A stretch of 64,000 bases of DNA from an uncultured Clostridia bacterium (lineage in GTDB: Bacteria > Bacillota > Clostridia > Oscillospirales > Acutalibacteraceae): positions 1-64,000 of the forward strand of contig CAMMVF010000001.1 in assembly GCA_946500295.1 (NCBI GenBank), read 5' to 3'. The stretch's first letter is position 1; each line of letters begins with the position of its first letter. Below, piece by piece: positions 2,291-58,143 of this stretch. The position numbers and the translations under genes are program-made. The notes below the pieces were generated by a model that saw only the letters and a list, made by a program, of their open reading frames with translations, did not search any database and had not been told where the DNA came from.

Positions 2291-2298
2291 TTAAATCT

Positions 2299-2467
2299 TT
2301 AAATCTTCGCCCGCGTGACAAGCTCGTTTGATCACGCCAGCGACGATTGCAACCGTCGCTGGGGAGCTTTGCTCCTCAGTCTTTCGGCGGGGGATTATAA
2401 CCCCACCGAAAGACTGAATGTTCCCCGCCGCCTACAGAGGCGGGGAATATCGGCGGCCTGGTTATAA
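2299..2467 (-). repeat. Repeat family 1, long form (copy b)
   Basis: Reverse complement carries the full series of hairpins from ATAACCAGG to GGGCGAAGATTT. Confidence 0.85.
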
Positions 2468-11514: not shown

Positions 11515-11954
11515 CTTTCACTCTCCGTTTTCAAATTTTCAATAATTCTCTTCAACATTTTGATAAAAGCCGCTTTATCCGAAGCGTCTGTATTTTTCCA
11601 AGCTGCATTATCTACGGCGTGAAATATGTCCTTAACTTCAGCGGCGGTTTTTTCTCCCTTTTCTGTCAGATGTATTAAGTAACTGCGTTTATCGCTTGCG
11701 TGCGATACCTTGCGTATTAAATCCTGCTTTTCCATTCCCGATAAAAGAAAGGTTATCGTTGATTTGTCCAATGCGCAGCCCAGCCCGATTTCCTTTTGAG
11801 TGCATCCGTTGTGCGCTGATAAAAATTCAAGTATCTTAGGTTGTCCGGGCATTAGTCCGAGTTTATTTGTGCGTTTTACTATGGATTTAGTAGCATAGTT
11901 GTTCGCTATCAGCAGTAGATAGTGCAGTTCGTCGTTATTCAAAATTTCCCACAT
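11511..11954 (-). CDS. MarR family transcriptional regulator
   Basis: wHTH 'CTQKEIGLGCALDKSTITFLLSGMEKQDLIRK...DKRSYLIHLTEKG'; overlaps the membrane protein gene. Confidence 0.9.
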   Translation of the reverse strand: MWEILNNDELHYLLLIANNYATKSIVKRTNKLGLMPGQPKILEFLSAHNGCTQKEIGLGCALDKSTITFLLSGMEKQDLIRKVSHASDKRSYLIHLTEKGEKTAAEVKDIFHAVDNAAWKNTDASDKAAFIKMLKRIIENLKTESER

Positions 11955-12018
11955 CCTTAAATTAGTTTTAACTCAAACTATATTATAGATGCCTTATCCT
12001 CAAATGTCAAGTTGCAGC

Positions 12019-12285
12019 GAGGGCGGGCGAGCGCATTTCCTCGGCTTTGCAAAGCCGAGGGAATTTTTCAAGGGCGGGTGTCCGCCCTTGAAAGGCGCTG
12101 TAAGCAAGGATTGCTTACAGCGGCGCTCGCCCGCCCTCGCGTCCCGAAACAAAGCTTAAACCGAGAGAAAGCAAAAAGAATTACTCCGCTCACAAAAGGC
12201 GGAGGAGTTTTAACGTGAGAAAAGTCAAAAAGTATAATTGTCCTTAATTGGTATAGAACAGAAACAGTGCAGAAGAACGTAGGAT
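12019..12285 (+). repeat. Repeat family 2, copy A (multi-branch hairpin element)
   Basis: 16-bp outer stem 12019-12034/12123-12138 enclosing three inner hairpins, then a conserved tail ending AACGTAGGAT; shared with 15111..15380. Confidence 0.85.
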
Positions 12286-12396
12286 GCAAGCGGCAAAGCC
12301 GCTTGCAGTTTGTCCCCCAAATTATGCAGCTTACCGTTTTAGGGGTTCAGTTTTTTTCTTTGAGCTGATAAAATAGCATTGACAGGAGGGGTTAGG

Positions 12397-12852
12397 ATGA
12401 AAATCTCTGTAATTGAGGGCTGTGCGGTGAGCGAGCCCGAGATTTTGATAAAATGCAAAAAGCTCGACAGCGAGCTTAAAGCCGTGGTAGATAAGCTTGA
12501 GCTTAAAAGCCACCGCCTTGAGTGCAGACGTGAGGGCGGAAAATACATGGTGAGTGTCAAAGACGTCTATTACATCGAAAGCGTTGACGAGCGCACCTTT
12601 GTTTATTGTAAAGACTCGGTTTACGAGTGTGAGCAAAGGCTTTATAAGCTGGAGTCGCGGCTTGCTAGGGGAGACTTTGTGAGGATAAGCAAAAGCTGTA
12701 TTTTGAATATCAGAAAGCTTGAGTGCGTGCGCCCGCTTTTAAACGGGAAGATGGAGGCAAGCCTTATCAACGGAGAAAAGCAGGTTATAAACCGACATTA
12801 CCTCAAGGGTTTTAAAGAGAAATTCGGATTGGGAGGACATAACAATGGTTAA
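12397..12852 (+). CDS. LytTR family DNA-binding regulator
   Basis: KYMVSVKDVYYIESVDERTFVYCKDSVYECEQRLYKLESRL...FVRISKSCILNI. Confidence 0.9.
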   Translation: MKISVIEGCAVSEPEILIKCKKLDSELKAVVDKLELKSHRLECRREGGKYMVSVKDVYYIESVDERTFVYCKDSVYECEQRLYKLESRLARGDFVRISKSCILNIRKLECVRPLLNGKMEASLINGEKQVINRHYLKGFKEKFGLGGHNNG

Positions 12853-13282
12853 GATGGGATATTACATTTTGCAGCTTGCCGGAACATTCAGCAGTGAGTG
12901 CTTGATTTTAGCGATAATATATCAGCTTGCCGGAAATCCCGAGGTGTTTAATTCTACAGCGGTGCTTATATGCTTTTTGCTGGCAGTGATTATCACAGCG
13001 GCAATGACGATCACAGACAGGCTGACCTTTCAATCGAGTAAGGCTGTGAAGATAATAGTTGATTTGCTTGTTATCTTTGCTGCCGTAGTCGGGCTGGGGG
13101 ATTTTGTTTTGGGGTGGTTTAATATTTTTCACCCGTTAGATATGCTGATTGTTATTGGCGTGATTGCTGCAGTTTACATTATTGTGTTCGCTATGATGAC
13201 GCTCAGGCTTAGGATAGATTCAGACAAGATAAACCGAAAAATTATGGAGATGAGGGAGGATAAAGATGGGGAGGATAATTGA
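12845..13282 (+). CDS. DUF3021-like membrane protein
   Basis: Four TM segments; position between LytTR and ABC genes is typical of this family. Confidence 0.65.
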   Translation: MVKMGYYILQLAGTFSSECLILAIIYQLAGNPEVFNSTAVLICFLLAVIITAAMTITDRLTFQSSKAVKIIVDLLVIFAAVVGLGDFVLGWFNIFHPLDMLIVIGVIAAVYIIVFAMMTLRLRIDSDKINRKIMEMREDKDGEDN

Positions 13283-14180
13283 GATAGAGAACCTGAAAAA
13301 ATCCTACGGAGAGGTCAAGGCTGTGGATGACATAAGCTTTTATGTACAGCAGGGCAGTTTGTTTGCATTTTTGGGGCCTAATGGAGCGGGTAAATCCACT
13401 ACCATCAGCATACTCAATACCTACCTGAAGCCCGACAGCGGCAGTGTAAATATTGCGGGACTCACGCTCGGCAGGGACGACAGCGAGATAAGAAGTCGAA
13501 TAGGAGTGGTGTTTCAGGAGGGCGTGCTGGATCAGAGGCTTACGGTCTGGGATAATCTGATGATTAGGGGGAGTTTTTATAAGCTCAGGGGCAGGGCGCT
13601 AAAAAAAGCCGCAGAGGCCGCGGCGGAAATAGTGGGTGCAACGGAGTTTTTAAACCGACCCTACGGAAAGCTCTCGGGAGGGCAGCGCCGCAGGGCGGAC
13701 ATAGCCAGAGCCTTATTAAACACCCCAAAGATACTGTTCCTTGACGAGCCGAGCACGGGGCTTGACCCTCAGACAAGACTGAGCATTTGGGAGACGGTAA
13801 AAAAACTGCAATCCGAGCAGGGAATTACCGTGTTTCTGACCACTCACTATCTCGAGGAAGCGGAGAGTGCAGGCTATGTGGTGATTATCGACAAGGGAAA
13901 AATAGCTGCAAAGGGAACTCCAGTGGATCTGAAAAGAAGGTTTGTCAAGGATGAGTTGTATCTGTACCCCCAAAAAGGCGCAGAAAAAGTGTTGTACGAT
14001 AAACTGGACAATACAGTCGGACTGACTGTTAAAAATGAAGTGGCTGTGATACCGCTTGACTCGACCTTTGAGGCTTTAAGCTTTATAGATGAATACAAGT
14101 CCCATATTTCGGACTTTGAAGTTCGCAAGGGTACGATGGATGGACTATTTGTCGCGGTAACGGGGAGAGAAATGAGATGA
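13266..14180 (+). CDS. ABC transporter ATP-binding protein
   Basis: Walker A GPNGAGKST, signature LSGGQRRR, Walker B ILFLDEP. Confidence 0.95.
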   Translation: MGRIIEIENLKKSYGEVKAVDDISFYVQQGSLFAFLGPNGAGKSTTISILNTYLKPDSGSVNIAGLTLGRDDSEIRSRIGVVFQEGVLDQRLTVWDNLMIRGSFYKLRGRALKKAAEAAAEIVGATEFLNRPYGKLSGGQRRRADIARALLNTPKILFLDEPSTGLDPQTRLSIWETVKKLQSEQGITVFLTTHYLEEAESAGYVVIIDKGKIAAKGTPVDLKRRFVKDELYLYPQKGAEKVLYDKLDNTVGLTVKNEVAVIPLDSTFEALSFIDEYKSHISDFEVRKGTMDGLFVAVTGREMR

Positions 14181-15052
14181 CATTGAGTTTTGCAAAGAGA
14201 AATATGAAGGTGTTTTTGCGTGACGGCGGCTCGGTAATGGGGTCACTGCTGACGGTAATTATCCTTATAGGCGTGTATGCTTTGTTTCTCGGCGATATGA
14301 TGGTTAGCTCTATTGACAGCGGCGGCTTTGAAAATCACGCTAAGACTATGGCGGATGAGTGGATAATGGCGGGGATAGTTTCTGTAATGCCCTTGTCGTG
14401 CGCCTTGGGTGCGGCAGGGATTATTGTTGAGGATCGCTCGAAAAAGATTGATAGGGACTTTTACTGCTCGCCGATATCCAGAGCCTCCGTCAGCGGCGGC
14501 TATATCCTGAGTGTATTTTTGATTGCGTTTATTATGACCGTAATCGGCTTTGCACTGAGTCAGCTTTATATAGTTTCGAGAGGCGGAGAGCTGCTCTCGC
14601 TTGAGAATATGCTAAAGGCTCTCGGGGTAATTTTACTCGATGCTTTGGCGGCGAGCGCAATTATTATTACCGTGGCTATGCTGTTTAAAAGTCAGAACGC
14701 CTACGGCAGCGCCTGCACCGTTATAGGAACTCTGAGCGGCTTTGTGATGGGGCTTTACCTTCCGGTGGGGAGCTTGCCCGACGCGATAGCGACTGTTGTA
14801 AAATGCTTTCCGCTTTCGCACTCGGCTGTGCTGCTGCGGCAGATTTTTATGGAAAAGTCGCTTGAGCAAGCAAGCGAGGGTGCGCCTGCGCCGGTGCTTG
14901 AAATGCTCGACGGGGTTAAAAATGAGCTAGGGGTAAATATCAGCTTTGGGGATTATGTCGTAAGTGCGGCGCAGAGCGTGGCTGTGCTGGCAGTGACCGC
15001 AGCGGTGTTCTTTGGAGCAGCATGGCTGCTTGCGAGGAGGAAGGAAAAATGA
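14177..15052 (+). CDS. ABC-2 type transporter permease
   Basis: Six TM segments; overlaps the ATPase gene; 'IIVEDRSKKIDRDFYCSPISRASVSGGYILS'. Confidence 0.9.
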   Translation: MTLSFAKRNMKVFLRDGGSVMGSLLTVIILIGVYALFLGDMMVSSIDSGGFENHAKTMADEWIMAGIVSVMPLSCALGAAGIIVEDRSKKIDRDFYCSPISRASVSGGYILSVFLIAFIMTVIGFALSQLYIVSRGGELLSLENMLKALGVILLDALAASAIIITVAMLFKSQNAYGSACTVIGTLSGFVMGLYLPVGSLPDAIATVVKCFPLSHSAVLLRQIFMEKSLEQASEGAPAPVLEMLDGVKNELGVNISFGDYVVSAAQSVAVLAVTAAVFFGAAWLLARRKEK

Positions 15053-15110
15053 ATCATAGCATAGCAGAGATTGCCGGATAAATAGTTTAAAAAATACTTC
15101 GCTGTAAAAA

Positions 15111-15380
15111 GCGGGCGAGCACATTTCCTCGGCTTTGCAAAGCCGAGGAAATCTTTCAAGGGCGGCTTGTCCGCCCTTGAAAGCGCTGTAAGCAAGTGTT
15201 GCTTGCAGCGGTGCTCGCCCGCATTTGATGCCCCGAAACAAAGCTTAAAACGAGAGAAAGCGAAAAAAATTACTCCGCCCACAAAATGAGGCGGAGTTTT
15301 AACGTGAGAAGAGTCAAAAAAGGATTCTGACCCTTAATTGGTACAGTTTTCAACTATAGCAGTGCAGTGGTACGTAGGGA
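15111..15380 (+). repeat. Repeat family 2, copy B
   Basis: Outer stem GCGGGCGAGCAC/GTGCTCGCCCGC, the same three inner hairpins, and tail CCGAAACAAAGCTTAAA...AACGTGAGA...AATTGGTAC...GTACGTAGG. Confidence 0.85.
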
Positions 15381-15385
15381 GTAGG

Positions 15386-17089
15386 TTATTTTCCCTGCTT
15401 TAAAAGGTAGTTTGCACGGTTGATGGCGTTTAAAATTCCGTAGATGGAAGCCATATTGATATTGTTGCCGACTCCAACGCCGAAAATGCCCTTGCCGTTT
15501 TTGCGAAGCAGCTCGATGTAGGCTATGGCCTGCGAGTCACTGCCCTCGGTCATGGCGTGCTCGCTGTAGGAGAGAAACTTGTAGCAGTCAACGCCAATGG
15601 ACTTCATTGCGTTGAAAAAGGCGTCTATCGGGCCGTTACCCTCGCCGGTTATCTCCTTGCGACTCATTTCTCCGTCAATATTTACGGACAGAGTGCCCTT
15701 GAAGGTTACCATGTCCTTGCCCTCAGAGCCCTGCTGGATTACGTTGTGCTCAAGCAGGTCGTACTTTTTCGGCACGTAAAGATACTCTCTCTCGAATACA
15801 TGCAAAAGCTCATTCGGGAGCAGCTCCCTGCCGAGCTTGTCGCACTCGGCTTGAACTAAAGCGCCGAATTCGGGGTGCATCTTCTTGGGAAGATGGTAGC
15901 CGAAGGTGTGAGCCATGACAAACGCTGCTCCGCCCTTGCCGGACTGGGAGTTGATTCTGATTATCGGCTCGTACTGCCTGCCCACGTCTGCGGGGTCTAT
16001 CGGCAGATATGGAACCTCCCAGTAATCTGAGTTGGTTTTTTCCATGTACTGAGTGCCCTTGTTGATTGCGTCCTGATGAGAGCCTGAAAATGCGGTGAAT
16101 ACCAGCTCGCCGGCGTAGGGTGTTCTCTCGTGCACCTTCATCTTGGTACATCTTTCGTACACTTCCTTGAGCTTGGGCAGGTCGCTGAAGTCGAGCTTGG
16201 GGTCTACACCCTGGGTGTACATATTCAGTCCTACTGTAACTATGTCGAGGTTGCCGGTTCTCTCGCCGTTTCCGAAGAGGGTTCCCTCCACTCTCTCGGC
16301 TCCAGCCAAAAGAGCAAGCTCTGTTGCGGCTACTCCCGTGCCCCTGTCGTTGTGGGGATGAACGCTGATTATAGCTGCCTCACGGTTCGGCAGGTGCTTG
16401 ATGAAATATTCTATCTGGTCAGCGTAGGTGTTGGGGGTGCACATCTCGACGGTGTTCGGAAGATTCAAAATCACCGGGTTTTCCTTGGTGCTGCCCAGAG
16501 CCTTCATTACTTCGTCGCATATTCTTACTGAAAAATCCACCTCGGTGCCGCTGAAGCTTTCGGGGGAGTATTCAAAGCGGATATTTGTGTCGCCCTCGTA
16601 GCTGTCCGTAAGCTCCTTTATGAGCTTTGCACCCGAGACGGCGATTTCGGTAATGCCGTCCATGTCCTTGTTAAATACGACCTTCCTTTGCAGGGTGGAG
16701 GTCGAGTTGTAGAAGTGGACTATTACGTTTTTAGCGCCCTTGATAGCGTCAAAGGTCTTTCTGATGAGGTGCTCTCTGGCTTGCACGAGAACCTGAATAG
16801 TAACGTCATCGGGAATATGGCCGCCCTCGATAAGCTCACGGCAGATTTCGTACTCGGTTTCGGACGCCGAGGGGAAGCCTATCTCTATTTCCTTAAAGCC
16901 GACGTCGCACAAAAGCTTGAAAAACTCAAGCTTCTCCTGCAAATTCATAGGATCTATAAGCGCCTGGTTGCCGTCTCTCAGGTCAACACTGCACCATATT
17001 GGGGCTTTTGTAATTACGTTGTTTGGCCACTGTCTGTTTTCAAGCGGGATTTGCTTGAAGGGGATATACTTTTTGTAAGAATCAAGCAT
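15386..17089 (-). CDS. leuA: 2-isopropylmalate synthase
   Basis: WCSVDLRDGNQALIDPM, SVHPHNDRGTGVAATELALLAGAERVEGTLFGNGERTGN. Confidence 0.95.
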   Translation of the reverse strand: MLDSYKKYIPFKQIPLENRQWPNNVITKAPIWCSVDLRDGNQALIDPMNLQEKLEFFKLLCDVGFKEIEIGFPSASETEYEICRELIEGGHIPDDVTIQVLVQAREHLIRKTFDAIKGAKNVIVHFYNSTSTLQRKVVFNKDMDGITEIAVSGAKLIKELTDSYEGDTNIRFEYSPESFSGTEVDFSVRICDEVMKALGSTKENPVILNLPNTVEMCTPNTYADQIEYFIKHLPNREAAIISVHPHNDRGTGVAATELALLAGAERVEGTLFGNGERTGNLDIVTVGLNMYTQGVDPKLDFSDLPKLKEVYERCTKMKVHERTPYAGELVFTAFSGSHQDAINKGTQYMEKTNSDYWEVPYLPIDPADVGRQYEPIIRINSQSGKGGAAFVMAHTFGYHLPKKMHPEFGALVQAECDKLGRELLPNELLHVFEREYLYVPKKYDLLEHNVIQQGSEGKDMVTFKGTLSVNIDGEMSRKEITGEGNGPIDAFFNAMKSIGVDCYKFLSYSEHAMTEGSDSQAIAYIELLRKNGKGIFGVGVGNNINMASIYGILNAINRANYLLKQGK

Positions 17090-17150: not shown

Positions 17151-17400
17151 AAAAACGCCCCTTTGCACAAGCGCAAAAGGGGCGAATAATATCCGCGGTA
17201 CCACCCTAATTCGAGCTCAAGGCTCCTCAAAGGCTTCTAACAAAGCCCTGACCGATAACGCAGTCTGGCGTTCTGCCCTAAGTGTCGGACAGACAACTCC
17301 GGAATGAGCTATACACACGAACCCACCGACCGCCTTACACCAACCGACGGCTCTCTGCGCGGTGAAATCCGCATCTTGTTTCCTTCACAGTCTTTAAGTG
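17151..17400 (-). promoter_or_regulatory. T-box riboswitch (probably Leu) upstream of leuA
   Basis: Minus strand AGGGTGGTACCGCGG at 17193-17207, followed by terminator CGCCCCTTTTGCGC...GCAAAGGGGCGTTTTT; candidate specifier CTC at 17306-17308. Confidence 0.92.
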
Positions 17401-17520
17401 ATAGATTTAATTTATACTCACATTATATTCAAAGTTTTTCTCCTTGTCAATGCTTTTGTTTAAAATTAAATTTTAGTAGCGATTGGGAGAGAAACCTCGT
17501 TTTGGCTTTGTGCGGGAGGA

Positions 17521-17650
17521 AGGTGGGGGAAGCCGTTGCCCGCCCAGGGGCGGGCAACCCTTCGCAGGCGGGGCTGAGATTTTGGCGGAAAGAAGAATGC
17601 GCCCCGCCTGCGAAGGCGCTGTGCCGAGGCACAGCCGCTTTCCCCGCCCG
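17521..17650 (+). repeat. GC-rich multi-hairpin element architecturally similar to repeat family 2
   Basis: GTTGCCCGCCC/GGGCGGGCAAC, then a 15-bp perfect stem CTTCGCAGGCGGGGC/GCCCCGCCTGCGAAG, then CTGTGCC/GGCACAG; flanking GGGGAAGC/GCTTTCCCC. Confidence 0.6.
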
Positions 17651-17819
17651 TTTTCGCTCCGCTCGCTCTCGGTGCGTGGCAGTACAGGGGCAAGAACTTG
17701 CTTTGTACAGGGGAAAATGTTAAAATGAATTTAAACCGTATCTGATAACAAATTTGAAGATAATGACAACGACTGTAGAATATATGTATATAAATGATAG
17801 TGAGAAAAGAGGAGATATA

Positions 17820-22886: not shown

Positions 22887-23048
22887 ATAACCAAGCCGCC
22901 CCGTCTCTGTAGGCGGTGGGGGGACAGTCAATCTTTCAGTGGGGGTTATAATCCCCCACCGAAAACCTGAGGGGCAAAGCTCCCCGGCAACGGTTGCAAT
23001 CATCGCAGGCGTGATTAAACGGGCTTGTCACGCTTTCTCAGATTTAAA
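22887..23048 (+). repeat. Repeat family 1, long form (copy c)
   Basis: ATAACCAAGCCGCCCCGTCTCTGTAGGCGG...GCAAAGCTCCCCGGCAACGGTTGCAATCATCGCAGGCGTGATTAAACGGGCTTGTCACGC...GATTTAAA. Confidence 0.85.
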
Positions 23049-23183
23049 CGAGCTGAGTTGAGAGGATTAGTTTGTGAAAAAAGGATGAAAATTCTCAATA
23101 GGCGAAAAGTATTGGAAAGACAGTTAGGTGAGAACGGTACAAATTCAAACGACAGCTGTGCAGCCTAACGCAGAGATAAAAGT

Positions 23184-23291
23184 ATTACTCATTCCATAAA
23201 AGGAATTACTTTCAACGTGACAAAGCTCCCAAAGATGGCAAACTCTGAATTGGTACAAATGTAAATTAGAGCAGTGCGGCTGTACGTAGGA
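23184..23291 (+). repeat. Repeat family 2, partial copy C (tail module only)
   Basis: ATTACTC-hairpin-TTTCAACGTGA...AATTGGTAC...AGCAGTGC...GTACGTAGGA, shared with A and B; branched 5' module absent. Confidence 0.65.
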
Positions 23292-23379
23292 TAAAAAAAT
23301 TTAAAAAAGGGCTTGCTTTTTTTAAAAAATGGTGGTATCATATATCTTACTGTGAGTATGAGCAAAAGGAGGTAGGACA

Positions 23380-34726: not shown

Positions 34727-34851
34727 CATTCAGTCTTTCGGTGAGGTTTAATCCCCCTCCACCGAAACCCTGGGGAGCAAAGCTCCCCGGCGACGGTTGC
34801 AATCGTCGCAGACGTGATCAAACGAGCTTGTCACGCGGGCGAAGATTTAAA
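34727..34851 (+). repeat. Repeat family 1, 5'-truncated (copy d)
   Basis: CATTCAGTCTTTCGGTGAGG...GCAAAGCTCCCCGGCGACGGTTGCAATCGTCGCAGACGTGATCAAACGAGCTTGTCACGCGGGCGAAGATTTAAA. Confidence 0.85.
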
Positions 34852-34985
34852 ATATGGTATTTGTAGATTCGGCTATTTAAAAATTCTACTGGGAATCAAA
34901 TGTTAAATTTAGTACAAACAGTTTACCTTCTGTCGATTTAGTGGTAAAATAAACTGTATTGCAAAAATTATTACGGAGGGATTTT

Positions 34986-42196: not shown

Positions 42197-42328
42197 TTTA
42201 CAATTAAAGCTCGCTGCGATGTGGCGCAGGAAAGATGGTTTTAGTTTTCGACAGAAGCATGTTAATATGAAAAGCTTCAAGGCGAGCCCTCTGTCTCTAG
42301 TGGGCTTGCCTTTGCTTACCTTGATTAT

Positions 42329-42495
42329 ATAACCAAGTCGCCGATGTCCCCCGCCTTAGTAGGCGGGGGGGGACATTCAGTCTTTCGGTGAGGTTTAATT
42401 TCTTACCGAAACCCTGAGGAGCAAAGCACGCCTGCGACGGTTGCAATCGTCGCCGGCGTGATCAAACGAGCTTGTCACGTAGGCGAAGATTTAAA
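42329..42495 (+). repeat. Repeat family 1, long form (copy e)
   Basis: ATAACCAAGTCGCCGATGTCCCCCGCC...CATTCAGTCTTTCGGTGAGG...GACGGTTGCAATCGTC...CGTGATCAAACGAGCTTGTCACG...GAAGATTTAAA. Confidence 0.9.
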
Positions 42496-42619
42496 AACAC
42501 GAGTATTACACGGAGATGATACCGTATGGTGATCGTGTTTATTGTATAACTGTTGTCATGGGGAAAGTCGAGGGGGTGTTTTACTGGTATTAAAAAAATA
42601 AAAAAATTGAAAAAAGTGT

Positions 42620-45694: not shown

Positions 45695-45807
45695 ATAACC
45701 AAGTAGGCGATGTCCCCTGCCGCTGTCGGCAGCTGGGGACATTCAGTCTTTCGGTGAGGTTTAATCCTCTAACCCTGAGGAGCAAAGCACACCTGCGATG
45801 ATTTAAA
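45695..45807 (+). repeat. Repeat family 1, internally/3'-shortened (copy f)
   Basis: ATAACCAAGTAGGCGATGTCCCC...CATTCAGTCTTTCGGTGAGGTTTAATCC...CCTGAGGAGCAAAGCAC...GATTTAAA. Confidence 0.8.
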
Positions 45808-54066: not shown

Positions 54067-54221
54067 ATAACCAAGTCGCCTCTGTAGGTGTCGGGTTCCA
54101 TTCGGTCTTTCGGTAAGGTTATAATTCCCCACCGAAGCTCTGAGAAGCAGAGATTCTCGGCGACGGTTGCAATCGTCGCAGGCGTGATTAAACGAACTTG
54201 TCACGCAGGCGAAGATTTAAA
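54067..54221 (+). repeat. Repeat family 1, long form (copy g)
   Basis: ATAACCAAGTCGCCTCTGTAGG...CGGTCTTTCGGTAAGG...CGGCGACGGTTGCAATCGTCGCAGGCGTGATTAAACGAACTTGTCACGCAGGCGAAGATTTAAA. Confidence 0.88.
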
Positions 54222-57618: not shown

Positions 57619-58074
57619 ATGAAGATAATATCAATCAGAGAAAATCCCGAATGGACACAAAGGGCGATAGCCTATTTTCAAAAGCATTGGGCAAATCCCG
57701 ATAGCATGATGGTGTATGACGACTGCATAAAAAGCTCGCTGCAAGCTGAAAATCCTCTGCCGAGGTGGTATCTGCTGACTGATGAGGAGGAGATTATCGG
57801 TTGTGCGGGGCTTATCACCAACGATTTTATAAGCCGTATGGATTTATATCCCTGGCTTTGCGCTCTGTTTATTGAGGAAAAGCACAGGGGCAACGCCTAT
57901 GGCAGTCTGTTGATTGAGAAAATCAAAGAGGATACAGCGGCGGCAGGGTTTAAAAATCTTTATCTTTGCACTGACCATAACGGATATTATGAGCACTACG
58001 GCTTTGAGCATATAGCCGAAGGCTACCATCCTTGGGGAGATACCTCGAAAATTTACCGAGCGCAGTTAGTATAA
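57619..58074 (+). CDS. GNAT family N-acetyltransferase
   Basis: LCALFIEEKHRGNAYGSLLIEKIKED; LYLCTDHNGYYEHYGFEHI; start MKIISIREN after GAGGAG. Confidence 0.9.
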   Translation: MKIISIRENPEWTQRAIAYFQKHWANPDSMMVYDDCIKSSLQAENPLPRWYLLTDEEEIIGCAGLITNDFISRMDLYPWLCALFIEEKHRGNAYGSLLIEKIKEDTAAAGFKNLYLCTDHNGYYEHYGFEHIAEGYHPWGDTSKIYRAQLV

Positions 58075-58143
58075 CCAAGTCGCCGATGTCCCCGCCTCTG
58101 TAGGCGTGATCAAACGAGTTTGTCACGCAGGCGAAGATTTAAA
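58071..58143 (+). repeat. Repeat family 1, short form (copy h)
   Basis: ATAACCAAGTCGCCGATGTCCCCGCCTCTGTAGGCGTGATCAAACGAGTTTGTCACGCAGGCGAAGATTTAAA. Confidence 0.9.

Follow-up and report, generated by a model that had tools for sequence, protein, structure and literature searches.

A branched palindrome joined to a species-specific repeat in an uncultured Clostridia bacterium: probably a composite of interspersed DNA repeats

Several families of repeated, palindrome-rich DNA are scattered through the intergenic spaces of the uncultured Clostridia bacterium studied here. The element described below is one of them. It is present as two copies, A and B, in the window, that is, the first 64,000 nucleotides of contig CAMMVF010000001.1. 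The best explanation, to which a probability of about 0.62 is assigned, is a composite of non-autonomous interspersed DNA repeats. In this BOX- or BIME-like mosaic a branched palindrome is joined to a repeat termed Z, and the composite has been duplicated around a LytTR–ABC operon. The element is multi-copy, modular and restricted to one lineage, lies downstream of genes on the same strand, and has a fold with compensated changes. Interspersed palindromic repeat mosaics are a known kind of DNA; the branched module is the unusual part. Nothing shows the element to be a stand-alone RNA gene. Membership of Gut-1, of the RAYT-REPs or of described insertion sequence ends is not claimed.

The branched palindrome of copy A (12017–12140, no strand assigned) was delimited by sequence, fold and structure scan. 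An 18-bp outer stem encloses three hairpins, and together these form a four-way junction. The left arm, GCGAGGGCGGGCGAGCGC (12017–12034, +), and the right arm, GCGCTCGCCCGCCCTCGC (12123–12140, +), are read from the sequence. Sequence and fold define hairpin 1 (ATTTCCTCGGCTTTG/CAAAGCCGAGGGAAT; 12035–12064, +), hairpin 2 (TTTCAAGGGCGG..CCGCCCTTGAAA; 12066–12093, +) and hairpin 3 (CGCTGTAAGCAA..TTGCTTACAGCG; 12096–12122, +). The hairpins are tightly packed, with hardly any unpaired base at the junction. A multi-branch fold with three hairpins had been proposed in the initial annotation, and the folding energies bear it out: the minimum free energy (MFE) of positions 12010–12300 is -134.1, compared with -85.9 ± 5.0 for dinucleotide shuffles (z -9.6). 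The outer stem proposed there is also real, at two base pairs more than the 16 bp given. Copy B (15108–15226, no strand assigned; sequence, fold and structure scan) follows the same plan, as had been stated, with the same three hairpins, a perfect 12-bp outer stem (arms 15111–15122 and 15211–15222) and an MFE of -126.2 (z -9.8, dinucleotide shuffles). For each copy, 0 of 200 shuffles were as stable.

Three full copies of the branched palindrome exist in the genome. The third, at C23:33547–33664(-), is inverted and flanked by two Z tail units. Shorter relatives are found where contigs C15 and C28 end; C14:59370 and C24:5033 have a single arm each. The assembly seems to break at these repeats, so that more copies probably exist than were counted. 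A covariance model built from A, B and C23 (R2) retrieved no branched palindrome from relatives, in a search that misses purely structural matches. Identity with a described insertion sequence end, the outcome the initial annotation had named as speaking against its reading, was not encountered: the phage and plasmid records compared contain no match to the element.

The second part of the composite is the tail. In copy A it spans 12145–12289 (+) and consists of a head, the Y hairpin and the Z repeat, as defined by nhmmer and alignment. Copy B has the same arrangement at 15234–15384 (+; sequence and nhmmer), its Z ending in GTAG at 15374–15377. Two more Z copies stand in tandem at 23065–23295 (+; profile search). 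A conserved tail had been recognized earlier; it is far more widespread than was then apparent. Searched with an iterated nhmmer model of the tail, the 2,175,498-base genome yields 132 matches (E ≤ 1e-3) on 45 contigs; of these matches, 109 score at least 40 bits. The core of Z reads ..AACGTGAAAAAAGTTAAAAAAGGACAnnnACTTTAGATTGGCACAnATTTAnACnAGAGCAGTGCAGnAGAACGTAGGA. GTAG near the right end of Z in copy A (ACGTAGGA; 12279–12282, +; sequence and alignment) is one of the best-conserved segments of the family and sits inside the longer conserved core. Directly 3' of Z in copy A is the W palindrome TGCAAGCGGCAAAGCCGCTTGCA (12285–12307, +; sequence and class statistics). Of 100 copies, 42 have a short palindrome after the GTAG end, compared with 12% of controls (p 7e-12), mostly as GCGGCATTTGCCGC and mostly at a nearly fixed offset of 4–5 nt. 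On the 5' side a perfect hairpin was found in 26 of 103 copies against 15% of controls (p 0.02); that Z normally has such a hairpin before it is weakly supported.

The optional Y module (TTAAAAGGATTACTC..GAG..TTTTAACGTGAAAAAAGT) lies 5' of Z in 58 of the 109 strong copies and is absent from 31. In copy A it forms the hairpin CTCCGC..GCGGAG (12184–12204, +; sequence). Among the tail features listed in the initial annotation, this alone is a hairpin, and few other copies retain it; only a few of 54 Y modules are long hairpins. Three are perfect terminator-like hairpins flanked by A and T tracts, and the differences among them are compensating. RNAalifold gave a consensus structure with 0 pairs over 42 copies of Z, which is thus conserved as sequence. 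A pseudoknot spotted by eye in Z (GCAC/GTGC with TACG/CGTA) was rejected: its second helix is lost in many copies, and RNAalifold placed no pairs there. Terminal inverted repeats are absent from Z; the branched part has such repeats, its outer stem. Y and Z also form tandem arrays at contig ends, at C29:1–466 and C29:14987–15211, with a period of about 119 nt.

The placement of Z is that of dispersed non-coding DNA. Outside called open reading frames lie 93 of the 109 strong copies, and some of the frames containing the other 16 look spurious. Of 79 classifiable Z copies, 62 lie in sense orientation downstream of a gene (p 4e-7). Convergent gaps are over-represented (32/79, against 124/638 in a background of gaps longer than 150 nt, with genes called by simple ORF length). 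The range is narrow. Model R1 detected no Z in about 148 relatives, save one weak match in another genus, which was coding-like and was set aside. The Z core pattern GCAGTGCAGNNGNACGTAGG has 46 occurrences in this genome; across 395 other genomes of the order it has none. No genuine viral, phage or plasmid match for Z was present in the collections searched; four pattern matches on viral contigs were all chance, in coding-like sequence. Many dispersed non-coding copies in one genome, with a variable number of modules, are the marks of an interspersed repeat, and by its distribution the element behaves as dispersed repetitive DNA specific to this species.

The modules upstream of Z vary: Gut-1, the branched palindrome and others are found there. 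Gut-1 (RF01706) is known from a study of human gut metagenomes, in which it was considered a probable noncoding RNA and found in environmental sequences only (PMC2864571). It has 39 matches at E ≤ 1e-3 in this genome, 16 of them over the Rfam cut-off, and is present in 73 of 148 relatives, usually in several copies each. For 17 of the 39 matches, a Z unit on the same strand ends no more than 350 nt downstream, compared with 3.7% expected at random non-coding places (p 8e-15), and the distance is most often 155–172 nt. In A and B the branched palindrome occupies the upstream position that Gut-1 arrays hold elsewhere. Both are three-hairpin arrays ahead of the same AACGAG–Z core, as a divergent Gut-1 member would be, but such membership is very improbable: it is largely refuted by cmscan, which gave no match in 11900–15500 at E ≤ 5. 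The stem sequences also differ, the TGAAAT linkers are missing, and the Gut-1 model has no outer stem. Gut-1 is, moreover, widespread in relatives, whereas Z and the branched palindrome are not. In roughly half of the relatives Gut-1 is itself dispersed as a repeat (loci L285–L304). Several of its copies begin directly after a terminator T run (TTTTT followed by CAATGATATC), for example behind tRNA genes and, in the genome studied here, at C9:54318; this suggests insertion at terminators.

The stems of the branched palindrome have changed in a compensated manner. Six stem pairs differ between A and B, and five of the six still pair. Four of the changes are double-sided, of which three are re-paired; the two single-sided changes both give G-U pairs. 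The paired GC>AT change of the outer stem and the U-G pair in hairpin 3 of copy B, both pointed out in the initial annotation, are present. Two more outer pairs are compensated, and one is broken in B. Hairpin 3 of C23 has further double changes (T-A>A-T), with a series T-A / T.G / C-G over A, B and C23, and the three copies together show 100% pairing in the outer stem and in hairpin 3. Double-sided covariation is seen at three pairs of the branched part, from 3 sequences only, and at none in Z. Stem decay was gauged against F1, a palindromic repeat of 171 bp that has 56 full copies in this genome. Its stems have 422 one-sided and 17 double-sided changes (17/439), and 123/439 (28%) of its changed cells still pair. 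The A/B stems differ from this both in the double-sided share (Fisher p 5e-5) and in the pairing kept (p 0.009), where the A/B changes were counted by hand on aligned arms and the cells of related F1 copies are not independent. With compensation more frequent in A/B than in decaying F1, the fold seems to be maintained; judged from the aligned stems, their changes are not simple neutral decay. Three copies yield the same pattern under selection on RNA or folded DNA and under template-switch (palindrome-correcting) mutation, and these are indistinguishable here.

F1 (TATAACCAAGTCGCCG...GGCGAAGATTTAAA) is palindrome-rich and sharp-ended, with no visible target duplication. It lies in the window at 2297–2466(-), 22899–23048, 34727–34852, 42328–42497, 45695–45788, 54077–54221 and 58069–58143. 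Genome-wide there are many partial and end-joined short forms besides the 56 full copies, and its stems decay uncompensated.

Branched palindromes of the same plan recur with unrelated sequence. Model R2 also selects elements of this architecture with unrelated stems at C24:8052–8182, C19:34300–34403, C15:56671–56805 and elsewhere. One is in the window at 17522–17648 (no strand assigned; R2 match 17518–17653, 51 bits, E 3e-9; structure scan), between the leuA T-box (17175–17397, -) and rnfC. When 478 kb of non-coding DNA were scanned strictly for structure, independently of R2, nine tight four-way junctions had a folding-window MFE ≤ -70; the control, one dinucleotide-shuffled copy, gave 0. 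Four-way topology alone is not rare, with 16 cases in the genome and 6 in the shuffled copy. The stems of most of the nine are unrelated; an outer arm close to GGGGG(A/C)AGC is common to several elements, and of the three hairpins it is usually the middle one that is longest. They occur in divergent, convergent and operon gaps alike, with no conserved gene neighbour. The congeneric genome G003 has a four-way palindrome upstream of its leuA T-box (L317:881–1018, MFE -107, stems of 9–14 bp), at the position corresponding to the 17522 element and unrelated to it in sequence. None was found at that place in three other congeneric genomes; a single case in four other genomes is no more than suggestive. 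Four-way candidates at loci of other phyla were mostly GC-rich coding noise, and therefore only the L317 case was used. It is possible, if unlikely, that this genome and at least one congeneric species carry a class of four-way junctions with an outer stem, three hairpins and nearly no unpaired junction bases. Its architecture would be conserved and its stems almost completely turned over, making it a fast-evolving structured-RNA or folded-DNA family invisible to sequence searches.

The same observations bear on a structured RNA, acting in cis or as a small RNA, in which selection would hold the four-helix fold as the stem sequences drift and Z would be a mere passenger. The compensation beyond that of F1, the fully paired outer stem and hairpin 3, the nine junctions against none in one shuffled genome and the L317 element all agree with it. 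It is nevertheless doubtful, for homologous copies number only three, both strands of the folded part are about equally stable, and the G.T wobbles, as a test for selection on RNA, favour no strand consistently. The element has no conserved gene neighbour, and R2, which misses purely structural matches, found none in relatives. Rfam, the check proposed in the initial annotation, has nothing convincing for A or B at gathering or at relaxed thresholds (E ≤ 5). The view that the region is a structured RNA or cruciform rather than spacer thus holds in that it is no spacer and can form a cruciform; the unpaired tail, the equal strands and the Rfam result tell against the RNA half, which is partly supported at most.

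The locus itself offers further points. Copies A and B, direct repeats separated by 3.1 kb, flank the LytTR, DUF3021, ABC ATPase and ABC-2 permease genes (12379–15052, +; Pfam), an arrangement that fits duplication of one composite. The consensus-like promoter of the divergent MarR gene (TTGACA-17-TATAAT; 11982–12010, -) ends 7 bp from the outer stem of copy A. Downstream of leuA, the Y hairpin of copy B (15272–15297, -; sequence) is terminator-like, a stem followed by a T run, and looks like the leuA terminator. Such proximity to a promoter and such terminator form are expected of inserted repeats and are no proof of evolved function. A role as DNA, with the cruciform or folded single strand acting as a protein site, supercoil buffer or transposase or recombinase substrate, is rather improbable. 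The near-perfect, strand-symmetric palindromes, the nearby MarR promoter and the occurrence in all kinds of gap would suit it, but the different elements have no known binding protein or cleavage motif in common. That the elements are transcription terminators only is highly unlikely. The copy B hairpin behind leuA and the three perfect Y hairpins between A and T tracts have that form, but the four-way part has no T run, copy A lies between divergently transcribed genes, where a terminator is superfluous, and the conserved Z sequence is left unexplained.

The closest likenesses of the composite to known systems are in organization. BOX elements of Streptococcus (boxA-boxB-boxC; PMC3049150) are likewise modular, with variable internal modules, many copies, enrichment in convergent gaps and restriction to a lineage. 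The enrichment of BOX and RUP between convergent genes was read by its authors as a mark of parasitic mobile repeats (PMC3049150). No sequence relation to BOX is claimed. Z has no consensus fold, and BOX has nothing corresponding to the branched palindrome or to the Gut-1 modules. REP/BIME elements with their RAYT (PMC3733652) are also high-copy intergenic palindromes in mosaics, comparable with the GTAG end of Z and the palindrome that often follows. Z differs in its conserved non-palindromic core of about 100 nt, with GTAG within a larger motif. No RAYT flanked by Z was found in the genome; its two Y1 transposases are ordinary IS200/IS605-like genes without flanking Z. MITEs are similarly short, non-coding and dispersed, and the outer stem would act as terminal inverted repeats, but no target duplication is visible at A or B and no cognate transposase was identified. 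Nor was an empty site found, the congeneric leuA loci having different neighbours. These results count against a mobile repeat, as do the compensated A/B stem changes and the recurrence of four-way palindromes unrelated in sequence; the copying of a single mobile unit leaves such recurrence unexplained.

For a composite of interspersed repeats, the following course is proposed. (i) The unit would have two parts, a branched palindrome able to fold as a four-way junction and the species-specific Z with its optional Y module and GTAG end, often followed by a short palindrome. (ii) Such units would spread as DNA, mobilized by a trans-acting enzyme that may be an HUH/Y1 or another transposase. (iii) They would accumulate where insertion is tolerated, at the 3' ends of genes. 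(iv) A and B probably arose by duplication of one composite around the LytTR–ABC operon. (v) On read-through, the units would fold in untranslated regions and could serve as mRNA-end structures or terminators. (vi) Either selection on the folded form or template switching that corrects palindromes would keep the fold intact.

The A/B repeats would permit loss of the operon by recombination, so that the LytTR–DUF3021–ABC operon is a possible excisable unit. For annotators, the 270-bp blocks are repeats, and entries as single noncoding RNA genes are unwarranted. The branched palindromes provide a test case for distinguishing RNA-level selection from palindrome-perfecting mutation. The link in this genome between Gut-1, an orphan 'noncoding RNA', and dispersed, multi-copy mosaics of repeats suggests that mobile palindromic DNA accounts for some of the RNA families reported from gut metagenomes.
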